DNA from: a virus | Reading direction: 5' to 3' (one strand) | Virus record (IMG/VR): IMGVR_UViG_3300006749_000190 | Span: 1 to 20,507 of that record | Length of the DNA: 20,507 nucleotides | Shown here: positions 11,795-19,855 of the stretch, one piece after another | How the letters are laid out: the number at the start of each line of letters is the position of its first letter | Position numbering within the stretch: the stretch's first letter is position 1 | The notes under the pieces: model-generated | The model's input: only the letters and a program-made list of their open reading frames with translations | Told to the model about the DNA's origin: nothing | Database searches by the model: none | Translations under genes and position numbers: made by a program

Positions 11795-13735
11795 TTAAGC
11801 GGCTGTCAAGTCTACAATTTCACATACACCGGCAGTACAGGCCAACTCCCTGCCCCCTGATGTATTGTCTTCTTTTTCATATTCGGGCAACTCGCCCCAG
11901 TCAATTTTAGTGGGCATGCGTGTTACCATTTCATCGTATTCATCTTTTGTGCAATCTTGATACGGGGCTTGCTTGTACGTATGGTCGCTGAATGGCAGGA
12001 AGCTAATGCCCGACACTTCATCGAAGTGTTCGTACACCCACGCACCTACATCCATCCATTCATTTTCCTTCACTGAAATTGTTACGCTAGGCTTATGTTC
12101 GCACCAATGGCGCTGATACAAAAGCCACAGTTCTAGCTGTTCGATGGCAGTCATAGCAGTCCGTGTAACAGCCAACGAAGGCGACTTCATTGGGAAACTG
12201 AACACAGTTGTGCTGTCTGGCTTCATTACATCAGGCTCGTTGGGAATGCCGGCATCACGCATAAACTGTGTGAGCGGGTCTTTGTTATCACCTCGCACTG
12301 TACGGATGTAGTGGGGGTTATGCCTAGCGTGAATACCGCTGGCACTATCGACAAGCTGTGAAACAGTGCCACTAGGTTTTACACACGTAATAGCTGCAGA
12401 TTGTGCAATTTTTAACTGTTGTGCATACTCAGCGTTAGTGTCTATAGCCTCGTTACGCAGTAGCTCAAGAGTGCTAGAAATGTTCATACCGAGGTCGGGA
12501 CTGGTGCCGCTGAGAAGCGTACTGTCCATGATGCCAGTCAATGACACCCCTAGTAGCCGCTCTTCCTCAGTATTTGTTTTCCATATTTTACGCAGATATT
12601 TAAAATCTGTGAGTGTGGATTGAAAAGTGCCCAGTATGGTGGCCAGACGCACTTTGCGCTTCAATGTATCGGCAGTATCCGTAGCACGTGCCACCACTTC
12701 TGACAAATTACAGAACTGGTAGGGACGTAGCAGAATTTCGGAACAGGGATTACATCCAAAATCCTGTTCTGCATCACGCCGACCATTTTTAGCGGCTTGC
12801 TTTCTAGCAGACTCACGATTGAATATGCCACGCTCACCTGACTTAGATTCATACAGCGATACCCACTCACGCATAAATGTGCCCATCTCGGGCTTACCTT
12901 TGTAGGCTACGCTGTTGTTAGCCAGCGCACGTTGTCCTTCATTTTCCCACCACTGCCCAGACTTGGCATGTGCCATTTGGTCATCGTTAAGATTAGATAA
13001 TGAAATCAATGCACTGCGGCGCACACCGCCAACAACTACAACTTCACCAATCTTGCACATGATGTCATGGCACTCAATCGGATATAGCCTACGTCCTGCC
13101 GCGCCCTTGAACTTATCAATTACAAACTGAAAAAGTTCTTCCAAGGGTGCGGGGCCACTAGCGCGACCACCAAATGTTTTAAGGCGTTCACCAGCTGCAC
13201 GAACATCTGATGTATCCCACTTAGGAATCTGGCCGGCATACAGCAAAGATATCAATTCACGCAGAGATTTTGACCAACCAGGACGGCTGTCACCTACTTT
13301 GATTACGGTATCGGTTTCGTGCATAGCCTCATTGACTATGGGCATCTTTTCTATGTTGTGGCGCTCCACGGAGAAGCCTACGCCTGTACCGCACATAAGG
13401 ATGTACATAGTCTCATCAGAGGCTCTGGGACTGTCTACGGGCACGTAGGAGCAGTTGTATCCGCCCACATGACAGCGGTCTAAGGCAGGACCAGAGGTCA
13501 TCAGAGCACGCATACTAGGCATAATTTCTTGATTCAATACGGCTTCTTCTAGGTCGCCCCGTAACTCACTACCAAGGTTGTAGTCGTAATTATCACGCAG
13601 ATGCCTATCCATATAATCAAAATAGCGTGAAACGGTTTCTACCCATGTCTCACGCCTTTGTTCATCTTCTTTCCATCTTGCGTACCGCGACAACGCGATA
13701 AAATTTTGGTAGTCTGTTGGTAGTGCGTTATTCAT
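11795..13735 (-). CDS. nrdJ: Class II (adenosylcobalamin-dependent) ribonucleotide reductase, monomeric type
   Basis: The 646-residue enzyme reduces ribonucleoside triphosphates to deoxyribonucleotides with a B12-generated thiyl radical. The active-site loop is N329-P-C331-S-E333: Asn, radical Cys and Glu. C95 (in NCSYVPVD) and C342 (in FCNLS) match the redox pair that becomes a disulfide. The C-terminus carries C633-x4-C638 (ELACTAGVCE), matching the shuttle cysteines of the Lactobacillus-type RTPR. KPSGTVSQL and the following Ser-Ala-Ser-Gly-His segment fit the phosphate-binding region. It is somewhat shorter than the roughly 740 residues of the bacterial RTPR. No intein or split is present. 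The start overlaps the upstream gene by 8 bp. It supplies dNTPs for phage replication and ties the phage to host or environmental B12. Confidence 0.93.
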   Translation of the reverse strand: MNNALPTDYQNFIALSRYARWKEDEQRRETWVETVSRYFDYMDRHLRDNYDYNLGSELRGDLEEAVLNQEIMPSMRALMTSGPALDRCHVGGYNCSYVPVDSPRASDETMYILMCGTGVGFSVERHNIEKMPIVNEAMHETDTVIKVGDSRPGWSKSLRELISLLYAGQIPKWDTSDVRAAGERLKTFGGRASGPAPLEELFQFVIDKFKGAAGRRLYPIECHDIMCKIGEVVVVGGVRRSALISLSNLNDDQMAHAKSGQWWENEGQRALANNSVAYKGKPEMGTFMREWVSLYESKSGERGIFNRESARKQAAKNGRRDAEQDFGCNPCSEILLRPYQFCNLSEVVARATDTADTLKRKVRLATILGTFQSTLTDFKYLRKIWKTNTEEERLLGVSLTGIMDSTLLSGTSPDLGMNISSTLELLRNEAIDTNAEYAQQLKIAQSAAITCVKPSGTVSQLVDSASGIHARHNPHYIRTVRGDNKDPLTQFMRDAGIPNEPDVMKPDSTTVFSFPMKSPSLAVTRTAMTAIEQLELWLLYQRHWCEHKPSVTISVKENEWMDVGAWVYEHFDEVSGISFLPFSDHTYKQAPYQDCTKDEYDEMVTRMPTKIDWGELPEYEKEDNTSGGRELACTAGVCEIVDLTAA

Positions 13736-14159: not shown

Positions 14160-14336
14160 TTAGTCACACGACGACAACCGTGATACGATTGCCGTGTGCT
14201 TTCCGTCTTCTTCTGTTTTACTGACCACGCGTGTGTCATACGCGATTGTTGGGTAGGTGTTCTTGTAGTTGTCTATATATTCCTGCAACTCTGCAGGGCT
14301 ATCGGCTTCTATTCTATACCTAACATCTCTTGGCAT
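14160..14336 (-). CDS. Small unknown protein downstream of the methyltransferase (58 aa)
   Basis: The ATG at 14336 lies within the last codons of the methyltransferase gene (17-bp overlap), with AAGG nine bases upstream. The TAA at 14162-14160 forms part of the Shine-Dalgarno of the DUF3310 gene. The product is MPRDVRYRIEADSPAELQEY followed by IDNYKNTYPTIAYDTRVVSK and a final strand (GKHTAIVSRLSSCD). This looks like a compact beta-alpha-beta-beta domain. No family is recognised. Its exact fit between two clear genes supports it as genuine. Confidence 0.75.
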   Translation of the reverse strand: MPRDVRYRIEADSPAELQEYIDNYKNTYPTIAYDTRVVSKTEEDGKHTAIVSRLSSCD

Positions 14337-15192
14337 TTTCTACAACCTTTATTGATTCAGCAATTTGTTGTGCAATCTGCGGGACTATGGCGTTGCCTAG
14401 TCCTTTAAGTCTGTCCATCCTTTTGGATACCCCATTAGCCACTCTACCCACGTCGGGTTCAACTGCCCACCAGTTTTGCTCTGATTGTCTGTGTGTTGCA
14501 CTGCTACGTCCAGCGTGTCCATTGACACTTTGCCGTTCCGTATCCTGCCCCCCTGATAGCCGCCCTTGTAATCTCTGGTTGTCGGTGTTGGCCACATCCG
14601 TACTTGGTCCGCTAAGTTCGCCCCAAATTTCAAGTTGGGATTCGTCTTGCTGACTCTCCGCCCCTTCTCGTCCAGTTGCCGCGGTCCTCCCGTCACATCC
14701 GTTGTCCTCGGTGTAGCCCACAATCCAGACTCTATCTCTTCTGTGCGATGCACCGACGCCGCTAGCTGGAACAATAAACGTCCTTGTGGCGTAGCCTTCG
14801 GTTTCCAAGTCAAGGAGCACTTGGTCGAGGCCCAAGCTGACGTGACCATAAACGTTTTCGAAAACAACCCAAGTGGGTCTTTTGGATGCAACAATTTTGC
14901 GGATGTACGGCCAGATGTGGCGGTCATCCTCTTCGCCTTCGCGGCGTCCTGCTTGACTGAAGGGCTGGCAGGGGTATCCAGCTGTGAGGATGTCACAGTC
15001 TGGAACAAGTCGTTTTGGGTCATTTGCTAGTTCCTTTACATCTGACTTAATTGGTACATTATTCCAATGCTTCTTTAATATGTCCCGACACCACTCCTCT
15101 ATGTCGCAGAACATTACAGGTGTTGAAAGTCCAGCCCACTCAAATCCTAGAGCAAAGCCACCGATACCACTACATAAGTCTACGTGTCTCAC
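14320..15192 (-). CDS. C5-cytosine DNA methyltransferase
   Basis: The 290-residue enzyme transfers a methyl group from S-adenosylmethionine to cytosine C5. Motifs in order: I, DLCSGIGGFALGF (5-17); IV, GYPCQPFSQAGRR (72-84) with nucleophile C75; VI, F-E112-N113-V; VIII, HRRDRVWIV (150-158); a variable target-recognition stretch (about 165-240); and IX/X, VGRVANGVSKRMDRLKGLGN and AIVP (248-271). All key residues are present, so it should be active. The start is GTG, with a perfect AAGGAG six bases upstream at 15199-15204 that overlaps the upstream stop. No restriction endonuclease partner is visible, so this is probably an orphan used to evade host restriction or mark phage DNA. The recognition sequence is unknown. 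A second long frame lies inside it. Confidence 0.93.
   Translation of the reverse strand: MRHVDLCSGIGGFALGFEWAGLSTPVMFCDIEEWCRDILKKHWNNVPIKSDVKELANDPKRLVPDCDILTAGYPCQPFSQAGRREGEEDDRHIWPYIRKIVASKRPTWVVFENVYGHVSLGLDQVLLDLETEGYATRTFIVPASGVGASHRRDRVWIVGYTEDNGCDGRTAATGREGAESQQDESQLEIWGELSGPSTDVANTDNQRLQGRLSGGQDTERQSVNGHAGRSSATHRQSEQNWWAVEPDVGRVANGVSKRMDRLKGLGNAIVPQIAQQIAESIKVVENAKRC
14397..15023 (-). CDS. Nested +1-frame gene inside the methyltransferase (208 aa)
   Basis: A 208-codon frame lies wholly inside the methyltransferase gene, starting at the second base of its codon 57. It has its own ATG with AAAGGA eight bases upstream (15032-15037). The product reads as a protein type I know as free-standing in phages and prophages near C5 methyltransferases: MTATSGR (33-39), LTWKPKATPQGRLLFQL (71-87), WPTPTTRDYKGG (144-155) and LNPTWVEWLMGYPKGWTDL (188-206). 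Its MTATSGRT is the shifted reading of the enzyme's DDRHIWPY, and its C-terminus is the shifted reading of WAVEPDVGRVANGVSKRMDR. No function is known. It may be a true overprinted gene or an open frame kept by constraint on the methyltransferase. Recognition is from memory. Confidence 0.5.
   Translation of the reverse strand: MTQNDLFQTVTSSQLDTPASPSVKQDAAKAKRMTATSGRTSAKLLHPKDPLGLFSKTFMVTSAWASTKCSLTWKPKATPQGRLLFQLAASVHRTEEIESGLWATPRTTDVTGGPRQLDEKGRRVSKTNPNLKFGANLADQVRMWPTPTTRDYKGGYQGGRIRNGKVSMDTLDVAVQHTDNQSKTGGQLNPTWVEWLMGYPKGWTDLKD
15032..15037 (-). promoter_or_regulatory. Internal Shine-Dalgarno for the nested frame
   Basis: AAAGGA on the - strand, eight bases before the ATG at 15023-15021. 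It lies inside methyltransferase codons 53-54 (Lys-Glu of VKEL). This is the main local support for separate translation of the nested frame. Confidence 0.45.
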
Positions 15193-15202
15193 ATACGACT
15201 CC

Positions 15203-15460
15203 TTAATGTTGAGTTAATACAATATCCTCTTCGTCTCCATAACTTTCTTCGCCCATCTCCAATAGGCTCTGTACATCTTGGGTGGCGCTGTAGGCCATAC
15301 CCCTAGTTAATAGGGCATAGAATACCACATCTTCCTCGCTTAACCTATCGTCAGGGTGATGATATATCTCAATACCAAAGCCATCCTTTTCTTCCTGCTC
15401 ATGCCTAATGATAAGTGCAGAATCTCCTGGATTTAATTTCAGTTCTTGTGTTTCTGACAT
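15203..15460 (-). CDS. Acidic unknown phage protein (85 aa)
   Basis: The 85-residue acidic product has a beta-rich first half (LNPGDSALIIRHEQEEKDGF, then IEIYHH) and a helical part with VVFYALLTRGMAYSATQD, then an acidic tail. The segment xxxALLTRGMAYxA is one I have seen in small phage proteins of unknown role. AAAGG lies seven bases before the ATG. The gene overlaps the upstream endonuclease by 22 bp, and its TAA forms part of the methyltransferase Shine-Dalgarno, so methyltransferase translation probably follows from this gene. Confidence 0.7.
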   Translation of the reverse strand: MSETQELKLNPGDSALIIRHEQEEKDGFGIEIYHHPDDRLSEEDVVFYALLTRGMAYSATQDVQSLLEMGEESYGDEEDIVLTQH

Positions 15461-15792: not shown

Positions 15793-15994
15793 CCGTTTTT
15801 TCGATACGGACTTCGTGGATTGTTTCTGCTGAGAAGGCACAGACTTGCCCTTCGCAGTAGAGCGTGGGGAACGGGACGCCTTCTTTGAGTTCCGTAATGA
15901 AGTCATAGGCTTCCGCTTCACTTGTTTTGAAGATTTTGGCCGTAGCGTTGCCATCAGGTGTCCTATACTGTAGCGTCAGTGTCACGCCATTCAT
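15758..15994 (-). CDS. Small unknown protein between two nucleases (78 aa)
   Basis: The ATG at 15994 lies within the end of the Cas4-like gene (32-bp overlap). The 78-residue product is MNGVTLTLQYRTPDGNATAK, an acidic helix (TSEAEAYDFITELKEG), FPTLYCEGQVCAFSAETIHE and a charged tail. It looks like a small beta-alpha-beta domain with two Cys. It is unrecognised. The frame is open upstream to 16225, but that part is the shadow of the Cas4-like gene. No clear Shine-Dalgarno is present, so coupling to the upstream gene is assumed. Competing use of this region by an N-terminally extended endonuclease seems less likely. Confidence 0.65.
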   Translation of the reverse strand: MNGVTLTLQYRTPDGNATAKIFKTSEAEAYDFITELKEGVPFPTLYCEGQVCAFSAETIHEVRIEKTDVSEVSESQGT

Positions 15995-16847
15995 CGGTGA
16001 TGTGGGTGTACCAGACGTACTTTGGGTTCTTTCCCTTGCTTGGGAGTTGTCGTCTGAATTCAAGGTTCTTCCAGCAATGTTTTTTGTAGTCGCACCATGA
16101 GCATTCAATCCCCAATACCCGATTTCCGGTCTCTTTCTTGTAGAAAGATTCTGGAACATCAGAAAACTGTCGTTTAAACGGCTTAGTGGTGTCGATTGCA
16201 GAAATGGATTCCTGTATCTTATCATTTACTTCTTCCTTCTCAGGCTCATTATCAGGTGCTTCAGTGAAAGCAATTTCTCCAGTGGATTTGTTCAATGCAA
16301 TCCAACCTTTAAAAGGCTTTCCAGCACCCATTCCGTATCCGATGCCCTGCGCTACATAACCAAACGAATCATTAACTTTGATTTTATTGTAGCCATCAGA
16401 CGAGTTAAATTTATGCTCAAAAGCAAAGGGTGAGGCTGTCTTTATATCCCAAATACCATCGTCAAGTTCTACATCGTACTCGCCATTAATGGGTGTGCCA
16501 TCAGCGTCATACGATACTTTAGTATGCTTTGATTTAATATCAATACCCGCCGCTTCCATCAATGTGAACATGGCGGCTTCCATAAGGTCGCCCATAATCA
16601 TACGCATCTTAAAATCATACGTAGGTGTTTCGGGCTTTAGTCCTTTAGCTTGCAGATGCAACTGGCAAGATGGTCTACCGATGTTGCTCATACGCAATGT
16701 AAAGTCATCGTCACGCTTGGTGAATTGCTTCTCCATTGCGTCACGTGCGTATTGTGCAAACCTGTCAAGGGTGCGGGGAGACATCTCTGCCTCCCCACGA
16801 GCCGCCTTTGAAAGGAACGAAAGAAGGCGGCTTTGATTGGAATTCAT
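15963..16847 (-). CDS. Cas4/RecB-like PD-(D/E)XK exonuclease with Fe-S cysteines
   Basis: The 294-residue protein has the RecB-type nuclease core: GDLMEAAMF (86-94, with E90), GEYD125, WD134-I-K136-TAS and YVAQGIGYG (164-172, the QxxxY-like helix). It also has one early cysteine (C61 in SCQLH) and three late cysteines C249, C252 and C258 (ECSWCDYKKHCW). This 1+3 Cys layout is the [4Fe-4S] cage of Cas4 and AddB-type nucleases. Known members are DNA exonucleases. In phages they probably act in recombination, replication fork processing or host DNA degradation. No CRISPR array or other cas gene is present, so a CRISPR role is not supported. The start forms ATGA with the end of the upstream gene. 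Confidence 0.85.
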   Translation of the reverse strand: MNSNQSRLLSFLSKAARGEAEMSPRTLDRFAQYARDAMEKQFTKRDDDFTLRMSNIGRPSCQLHLQAKGLKPETPTYDFKMRMIMGDLMEAAMFTLMEAAGIDIKSKHTKVSYDADGTPINGEYDVELDDGIWDIKTASPFAFEHKFNSSDGYNKIKVNDSFGYVAQGIGYGMGAGKPFKGWIALNKSTGEIAFTEAPDNEPEKEEVNDKIQESISAIDTTKPFKRQFSDVPESFYKKETGNRVLGIECSWCDYKKHCWKNLEFRRQLPSKGKNPKYVWYTHITDEWRDTDATV

Positions 16848-17734: not shown

Positions 17735-19855
17735 TCACATTGCATGTCGGTAGTCAAATGAAAAGTCGTCCATATCAAGCCAGTTTTTTCCTATCTCGAT
17801 ATCAACCTCAAGAGGCACCAGCCACTTGGTATTATATGTTTCTTCGAAGGTTTTAGTAACCTTAGTCATAGCCTCATACGTGATGCTAGCAACTACATCA
17901 TCCTCCCCAGGAAATACATCCAGCACTATTGAGTCGTGAACTGTATTGATAACAAGAGATTTACAGCCCGAATCCTTAAGTGCATTGTGTAACGAAAGCA
18001 ACGCGAGCGGCACCACGCAACCACCAGCCATACCCTGCACAGGGTAGTTCTTGATGGAGGGCGCGTTGGATGCATTGCCAGAAGCAAGGCGTTTAGTATC
18101 AGGAAAAGCAAATTGCTGGCCTGTGAGCAGAGTAACATTGTTATGTATAATAGCTTCAGTCTGTAAGTCCTCATGCCATTTAGCCAGTTTTGGATACTTA
18201 TCAGTAAAGGCTTTGTAATATGCCATCTCGTTTGGCGTACCCGAGGTGCCGCCGTAGAGGGGCTTAAAGGTGTGGGCCTTTGCTGCCGTTCTCTCATCTT
18301 TTGTAACATCTTTTTCTGGCTTTTCAAATATGACTGATGCTGTGTATCTGTGGACATCTACCCCATCCATAATATCTTTTATCATCTGTTCATCACCACT
18401 CATCTGTGCGGCAATACGAAACTCTAGCTGGCTGTAGTCGGCCTGTAGTATAGAACCGCCGTTAAATCGTGAGATAACGACACGGCGCACAGGAAAAGTG
18501 TTCCCGCGTGGCTGGTTCTGAAAGTTGGGGTCAGACGACGACAGCCGTGTGGTACGTGTTATGCACTGATTAAACTTAGGATGCAAGATACCATTAGGCT
18601 TTACGTTACGTGCTATACCGCCAACAAAGCTGGACAAGTAGACATCTACGGCATTTAGCCGCACCGACGACGTAAGAAACTTCTCAGCATTAACGTTGCC
18701 CTTATTTCTAGCGGCCTTCATCAAGCGCAATAATGTCACTTTGTCTGTGGAAAAGCCACTGGCAGATATGTCCAAGACACCCTGTGGATTCATTGTGAGT
18801 CCGCCAATTTTAGGTAGGGGTATCTGCATGAACCCTGCACCGTCACAAACTTTACACTTGGTAGGCTTCTTCCACAGGTTACCATCAACCTTGGTCTTGT
18901 AGTATTCACCCCGCCCCTTGCAATACGTGCATTGCTCAGCACGTGTCTTGTGAACACGCGTTGTGAGATTGCGTACTGTCTCTGCAAACTTTGTGACGCT
19001 CATGTGAGGCCGTGGCAGCGGCTTGCCCTTTTCATTCAACCCAATGTTAAATGCCTCCGCCCACTTCTTCTTATCAGTAATACGGCGTGAGTAAATCAAC
19101 TCGCTAAGCTGTGCCGGTGACGCAAAGTTAATTATGCGGTCACCCATAACCTCATGGCACACGTCTTCCAACTGCATACGTAACTGTTGCCTTTCGACTT
19201 GATAATCAGAACGCACCTTGTGAAGTTCTTTAAAATCAATCTTGATACCGTTTTGTTCTAATGTTGCTAAAACGGGCAAGAATTTGTTCATAAGTTTCAA
19301 ATGCCTTTTGAGTGGTGCATTTCTGTCAGCACTATACAGGGCTTGTTGTGCAAAATATAGCTCACGTGTGGATATCACGTCCGCAATGCCGTACTCCTTA
19401 ACAGTATCCATAGGCATCTTGTCAAAGCCAATACCAGACTTGATGTACTCCTCAATCAAGTCGCCCTTCTTCTGTGCAACCTTACGGCGCTCACAGCTGT
19501 CAGCAAGGCTCACGCCCCAGTTCTGGCAGCGCAGTAGCAAGTATTCGGCAATCATGGTATCATACACATCGCCATCGTAAGTAAAACCCGACTCCCACAG
19601 CCAGACCAGGTCAAACTTAATGTTGTGACCAACTAAGAGTGTGGTGTTGTCAAGAATATTCTGTACATCGGCGTGTTGTATGTGTGTGTCTATCTGCTTT
19701 GTGTCGTGGTGAAACCAGTGGAACACCGGCTTATCATCACCAAAAGCATATTGCACGGACACAAGTTTGTTGTCCTTGTGAAACGGTGAGGGGTCAGTGC
19801 GCTTTGTCTCAGGATTAGTTTGAAACATTGTTTCAACGTCGAGTGTAGTAATCAT
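17735..19855 (-). CDS. polA: Family A DNA polymerase with DnaJ-type zinc finger
   Basis: The 706-residue replicative polymerase has an intact 3'-5' exonuclease: D6-x-E8 (exo I), H77-N78-x2-F81-D82 (exo II) and Y155-x3-D159 (exo III). Polymerase motif A is LQAD473YSQLEFR. Motif B is R522-x3-K526-x3-F530-x3-Y534-G. Motif C is VH640D641S. At the position of E. coli F762 there is Phe (F530). Between the exonuclease and the polymerase palm is an inserted zinc finger: C309-x2-C312 (CKGRG), then C334-x2-C337 (CDGAG), the CxxCxGxG repeat of the DnaJ central domain. This insertion is known from HMO-2011-type marine phages. No 5'-3' exonuclease domain is present. The ATG overlaps the helicase stop (ATGA). 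Confidence 0.95.
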   Translation of the reverse strand: MITTLDVETMFQTNPETKRTDPSPFHKDNKLVSVQYAFGDDKPVFHWFHHDTKQIDTHIQHADVQNILDNTTLLVGHNIKFDLVWLWESGFTYDGDVYDTMIAEYLLLRCQNWGVSLADSCERRKVAQKKGDLIEEYIKSGIGFDKMPMDTVKEYGIADVISTRELYFAQQALYSADRNAPLKRHLKLMNKFLPVLATLEQNGIKIDFKELHKVRSDYQVERQQLRMQLEDVCHEVMGDRIINFASPAQLSELIYSRRITDKKKWAEAFNIGLNEKGKPLPRPHMSVTKFAETVRNLTTRVHKTRAEQCTYCKGRGEYYKTKVDGNLWKKPTKCKVCDGAGFMQIPLPKIGGLTMNPQGVLDISASGFSTDKVTLLRLMKAARNKGNVNAEKFLTSSVRLNAVDVYLSSFVGGIARNVKPNGILHPKFNQCITRTTRLSSSDPNFQNQPRGNTFPVRRVVISRFNGGSILQADYSQLEFRIAAQMSGDEQMIKDIMDGVDVHRYTASVIFEKPEKDVTKDERTAAKAHTFKPLYGGTSGTPNEMAYYKAFTDKYPKLAKWHEDLQTEAIIHNNVTLLTGQQFAFPDTKRLASGNASNAPSIKNYPVQGMAGGCVVPLALLSLHNALKDSGCKSLVINTVHDSIVLDVFPGEDDVVASITYEAMTKVTKTFEETYNTKWLVPLEVDIEIGKNWLDMDDFSFDYRHAM

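Follow-up and report, generated by a model that had tools for sequence, protein, structure and literature searches.

The window examined here, a viral DNA sequence of 20,507 nucleotides, carries on its minus strand a locus that very probably encodes a two-subunit C5 cytosine DNA methyltransferase of the M.EcoHK31I kind, with both chains read from one stretch of DNA. The first chain, alpha, is a methyltransferase reading frame of 290 amino acids (14320..15192) with a GTG start and the Shine-Dalgarno sequence AAGGAG at 15199-15204. The second, beta, is nested within it in frame +1 (14397..15023, 208 amino acids). It has an ATG start, preceded at a distance of eight bases by the Shine-Dalgarno sequence AAAGGA (15032..15037), which lies within alpha codons 52-54, and it ends 77 bases short of the methyltransferase frame. 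A sequence-only reading had proposed a frame of 208 codons inside the methyltransferase, with AAAGGA eight bases upstream of its ATG and an end ahead of the methyltransferase stop, and each of these points was borne out. The coincidences of motifs that it reported between the two frames, DDRHIWPY with MTATSGRT and DVGRVANGVSKRMDRL with WVEWLMGYPKGWTDL, are exact.

It had also judged a random open frame of this length to be very unlikely, and the simulations agree. When the codons of the methyltransferase were permuted synonymously, a +1 frame this long appeared once in 20,000 trials, and when they were resampled by the codon usage of the window it did not appear in 20,000. Between 7.7 and 9.0 stops are expected in a stretch of 208 codons; none is observed, and none of the permuted copies was free of stops.

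By profile score, motifs and predicted fold, alpha is a C5 cytosine DNA methyltransferase. It matches PF00145 with an E-value of 2.6e-41 (142.5 bits, curated cut-off 22), although the match takes in only its residues 1-185 and only positions 1-185 of the 324 in the model, and it matches phrog_363 with 1.7e-72. In the alignment of relatives, motifs I (DLCSGIGG, 15157..15180, minus strand), IV (the catalytic PCQ in GYPCQPFS, 14956..14979, minus), VI (ENV), VIII and X (GNAIVPQ, 14377..14397, minus) are invariant or nearly so. The AF2 model, for which four rows from annotated records were left out of the input alignment, is confident for residues 1-167 and for the C-terminal helix, and a Foldseek search with it returned M.HaeIII and M.HhaI over about 168 columns. 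Residues 168-256 (14425..14691, minus) are modelled with a pLDDT below 50. They form a hydrophilic linker with 14.1% hydrophobic residues, compared with 32.7% in the catalytic part, and with 29% identity between relatives. Canonical enzymes keep their recognition domain and motif IX where alpha has this linker; judged by the PF00145 coverage and the predicted disorder, the alpha chain is without both.

The two frames were found together in every relative examined. A tblastn search with the nested product matched 223 phage records and 18 plasmid records. In each of the 17 records that were opened, a C5 methyltransferase occupies the same DNA and the nested frame lies in register +1 to it; these records come from phages of Paenibacillus, Lacticaseibacillus, Salmonella, Escherichia, Klebsiella, Burkholderia, Porphyromonas, Bacteroides and Microcystis and from plasmids of Streptomyces, Leptospira and Bacteroides. 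In the Streptomyces plasmid copy the last stretch of beta falls in a different frame, and in the Bacteroides plasmid copy the alpha match contains stops. An initial set of 160 viral contigs, half of them fetched by the alpha frame and half by the beta frame, has both frames in 160 of 160 cases. Dereplication of the viral loci left 104 methyltransferases, of which one (L128) is disrupted; in all others the longest +1 run measures 167-456 codons, while +2 runs do not exceed 115. Indels in L128 and in a further locus, L242, shift both frames and resemble assembly errors.

As a less biased test, two distant alphas served as queries irrespective of beta and yielded 160 further viral loci. Beta is present in the +1 register in all 160, with a stop inside the match in four; a stop within a match is seen in the distant homologues L307, L401 and L406. 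Eighty bacterial contigs from many phyla, fetched with beta, all contain alpha, and beta is in register +1 in 79 (72 contigs are clean, 7 have a stop in a match and 1 has an indel). As a control, PF00145 matches in ten bacterial genomes were examined, and two groups emerged. Canonical enzymes align with the whole of PF00145; their +1 runs are mostly 35-106 codons long with many stops, and they show at most a weak partial match to beta and never a full one. Where the PF00145 match in these genomes is N-terminal only and the sequence fits the alpha model throughout, beta is present.

The phage and plasmid records that were pursued, the two sets of 160 viral loci and the 80 bacterial contigs yielded no free-standing beta. 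A Porphyromonas phage record that lists beta alone was considered as a candidate and rejected, as alpha lies in the other frame, and in Paenibacillus phages that list beta as a gene of its own the methyltransferase likewise overlaps it in the other frame. The earlier reading had referred to a free-standing protein family and had suggested that it may have been born from methyltransferases by frame-shifting. Every homologue examined sits inside a methyltransferase, and a search in the viral, plasmid and bacterial sets for homologues outside such an overlap returned none; that part of the reading therefore fails, and the proposed origin of a free-standing family is left unsupported.

The other possibility it raised, true dual coding, is strongly supported by the conserved openness of the frame, by the loss of synonymous change and by the conserved start region. 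The frame is open in the same register throughout the relatives, with stops or an indel in a few of them. Fourfold degenerate sites at which the residue is the same (4,091 pairs) differ in 62.5% of cases before and 65.0% after the overlap, compared with 28.9% inside it. Synonymous change is thus halved exactly over the overlap, and the edges of this constraint are sharp, near alpha codons 50 and 270. With a beta HMM, real beta frames reach 157-338 bits, whereas 2,060 synonymous permutations stay at or below 147 bits, with a median of 83. Alpha codon 53, which lies in the Shine-Dalgarno sequence of beta, is AAG in 95 of 103 relatives and AAA in one, compared with 631 AAG and 762 AAA codons overall. 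The start of beta is conserved, usually with a stop just 5' of it.

Along the overlap the constraining frame changes: the first half of the DNA is governed by alpha and the second by beta. In alpha codons 58-160, position 3 is still the most variable, though its variability is reduced. In the linker and motif-IX regions the most variable position is alpha position 1, which is position 3 of beta, and therefore beta is the constrained frame there. Identity between relatives is accordingly higher for beta than for alpha, with 38% versus 29% in the linker and 80% versus 73% in the motif-IX region. Both frames are under selection, and genuine dual coding at 14397-15023 is close to certain.

Beta itself has no catalytic motifs, and neither Pfam nor the PDB recognises it; the PDB profile match to Csf1 is at chance level (E 0.2). 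It matches phrog_1008 with 5.7e-33, and so do all 61 of the aligned betas, the best with 1.6e-74. On these matches phrog_1008, which bears the name "DNA methyltransferase", is the beta family. Two further families of that name, phrog_31772 and phrog_10223, match beta as well, and the name of these PHROGs probably derives from the overlapping alpha gene. Modelled alone with AF2, beta gives a poor structure (pLDDT 50). Such low confidence might fit an obligate subunit, yet it counts as evidence for nothing.

The layout of beta can be read from its relatives. A conserved N-terminal part extending to about residue 100 is followed by one to six blocks, with a median length of 41 residues and beginning with W[PA]TP or a variant, and by a C-terminal end with the consensus LNPxWVEWLMGYPxGWTDL. 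In the window this end comprises residues 188-206 (LNPTWVEWLMGYPKGWTDL, 14406..14462, minus strand) and is nearly invariant. It resembles motif IX: hhalign aligns VEWLMGYPKGWT with LQGFPDWF, motif IX of canonical C5 methyltransferases. The match is statistically weak, with an E-value of 0.009 when just the tail is compared and 0.1 with whole beta, and it concerns a single template.

The window's beta has two of the blocks, here termed modules. Module 1, residues 102-143 (WATPRTTDVTGG...LADQVRM, 14595..14720, minus strand), belongs to a cluster found in 49 betas with varying neighbours; module 2, residues 144-187 (WPTPTTRDYKGGYQGG...KTGGQ, beginning WPTPTTRDYKGG; 14463..14594, minus strand), belongs to a cluster found in 36. 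In 250 betas we counted 613 modules, which form 148 clusters and occur in 184 arrangements. The N-terminal parts match at 85% identity or more in 187 pairs of betas, and 98 of these pairs have mutually different modules. We prefer this count to the converse test, in which modules shared at low N-terminal identity are scored, because misaligned N-terminal parts may inflate the latter. The same module cluster was never observed twice in one beta, compared with 15 expected cases, or 7.6 when each module arrangement is counted once. Exchange, variable number and non-redundancy are the behaviour that target-recognition cassettes would show. Since phages exchange the modules and no beta holds the same one twice, we infer from this behaviour and from their position that they are such cassettes. 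The largest number of modules, six, occurs in the 362-codon run of L070, and a 456-codon run in L068 carries between its modules an extra segment of about 100 residues that is unlike a module.

Beta is likely to be a subunit of the methyltransferase. The sequence-only reading, supported on the point of dual coding, did not recognise that the nested frame probably encodes what the enzyme itself lacks. In the mechanism that we propose, alpha would be translated from its own GTG. It would contribute SAM binding and catalysis through a domain that contains motifs I-VIII and X, and its residues 168-256 would form an unfolded linker that is largely a by-product of the beta frame. Beta would be translated from the internal ATG with its own ribosome-binding site and would supply a small DNA-recognition domain made up of the N-terminal part, the interchangeable modules (two here) and the motif-IX-like end. 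The two chains would bind each other and assemble into one C5 methyltransferase, in which each module probably adds one target sequence. The assembled enzyme may methylate the phage's own DNA as protection from host restriction. As a possible history, the recognition part of a canonical enzyme may have slipped into the +1 frame and may then have been extended upstream over the catalytic part by internal initiation.

Related arrangements are known. The gene for the small subunit of M.EcoHK31I, an enzyme with the target YGGCCR, reportedly lies within that for the large subunit in a different frame (Lee, Kam and Shaw, 1995). M.EcoHK31I consists of two polypeptides, the large one with motifs I-VIII and X and a predicted recognition domain, and the smaller one with motif IX (PMC3404938). 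Alpha likewise has motifs I-VIII and X without IX, and the gene for the putative small subunit is nested in another frame here, as is reported for M.EcoHK31I. The two differ in that the corresponding region of alpha is a hydrophilic, unconserved and disordered linker, while one to six exchangeable modules are found in beta. In M.AquI the two subunit genes are not known to be nested. This naturally split C5 enzyme has motifs IX and X and half of the variable region on its second subunit (PMC3404938). It shares with our locus, as interpreted here, the division of a C5 methyltransferase over two subunits but not the place of motif X, which here is in alpha. The phage enzymes of SPR, phi3T, SPbeta and H2 have several tandem target-recognition domains in one chain. 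Titles cited in PMC8936443 describe them as multispecific C5 methyltransferases. They are similar in being phage-borne C5 enzymes with several recognition domains, but consist of one polypeptide in one frame, whereas the cassettes proposed here are on a second, overprinted polypeptide. Several recognition domains between motifs VIII and IX of one chain are absent from our locus, where the modules are in the +1 frame. A search of the open-access literature for nested or dual-coding phage methyltransferases found only mentions of M.EcoHK31I. Split C5 enzymes are known, but that literature did not yield a broad family of nested genes whose modular recognition part lies in an overprinted frame; absence there is no proof of novelty.

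The strongest rival to the two-subunit reading is that beta is a real but separately acting protein, such as an anti-restriction factor, a regulator or a toxin, that is nested by happenstance. Selection shows that the protein is made, not what it does, and this alternative can also point to the lack of a recognised domain and to the poor model of beta alone. Against it, beta was never seen without alpha, although a protein acting independently would be expected to turn up alone at times; alpha is without exactly the part that beta appears to carry, and the full-length canonical methyltransferases in the same genomes are without beta. We consider a separate protein unlikely. A programmed frameshift that fuses the catalytic part of alpha to the modules, so that no separate beta exists, would explain why the catalytic part, the modules, motif IX and motif X follow one another in the DNA as they do in canonical single-chain enzymes. 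It is highly improbable, however, as a conserved Shine-Dalgarno sequence and start belong to beta itself, usually with a stop just upstream, and as constraint begins at this start site, about 110 codons ahead of the modules; with motif X in the alpha frame, two opposite shifts would be needed. That the open frame is an untranslated by-product of codon bias and conserved methyltransferase residues has next to no probability: these residues do force some +1 similarity (hence the median of the permuted copies), but observed beta scores always exceed this null, synonymous change is halved, canonical methyltransferases have closed frames, and the second half of the overlap conserves beta better than alpha.

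The neighbouring genes of the window that were tested match models for DUF3310, RusA-like proteins, a Cas4-domain exonuclease and DNA polymerase A, or have no match, and no restriction enzyme gene was recognised among them. A ribonucleotide reductase with a match to the B12-dependent (class II) insertion domain (11795-13735), a Cas4-like exonuclease (15963-16847) and a family A DNA polymerase (17735-19855) belong to a replication and nucleotide region that surrounds the methyltransferase. The nested methyltransferase of two unrelated phages, L001 (2396-3070) and L178 (2335-3207), is followed at a short distance downstream by a phosphoadenosine phosphosulfate reductase gene.

Annotation usually gives only one of the two overlapping proteins. 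In the Porphyromonas phage L172 (1323-2186) beta is annotated as a hypothetical protein and alpha is unannotated over it, the public annotation of the plasmids L168, L169 and L171 has alpha only, and both frames are annotated in some Paenibacillus phages and in E. coli phage K1H.

Prokaryotes seldom encode two essential, structured proteins in a long overlap on the same strand. The nested arrangement described here spans plasmids and contigs of Streptomyces, Leptospira, Bacteroides and Bacillota as well as marine, enterobacterial and cyanobacterial phages. We lean towards the view that it represents a class of C5 methyltransferases spread through phages and bacteria, in which exchangeable recognition cassettes sit on a second protein whose frame overprints the catalytic gene. 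Every cassette swap would then also rewrite the linker of the other chain, and specificity would evolve as modules are traded inside DNA that codes twice. Phage methyltransferases of this type that are annotated as "orphan" would each be half an enzyme, should beta prove to be the specificity subunit, and assays on the protein of the annotated gene alone would fail. The beta modules would then offer a direct handle on predicting the methylation targets of phages and on the way in which overlapping genes tolerate the exchange of cassettes.
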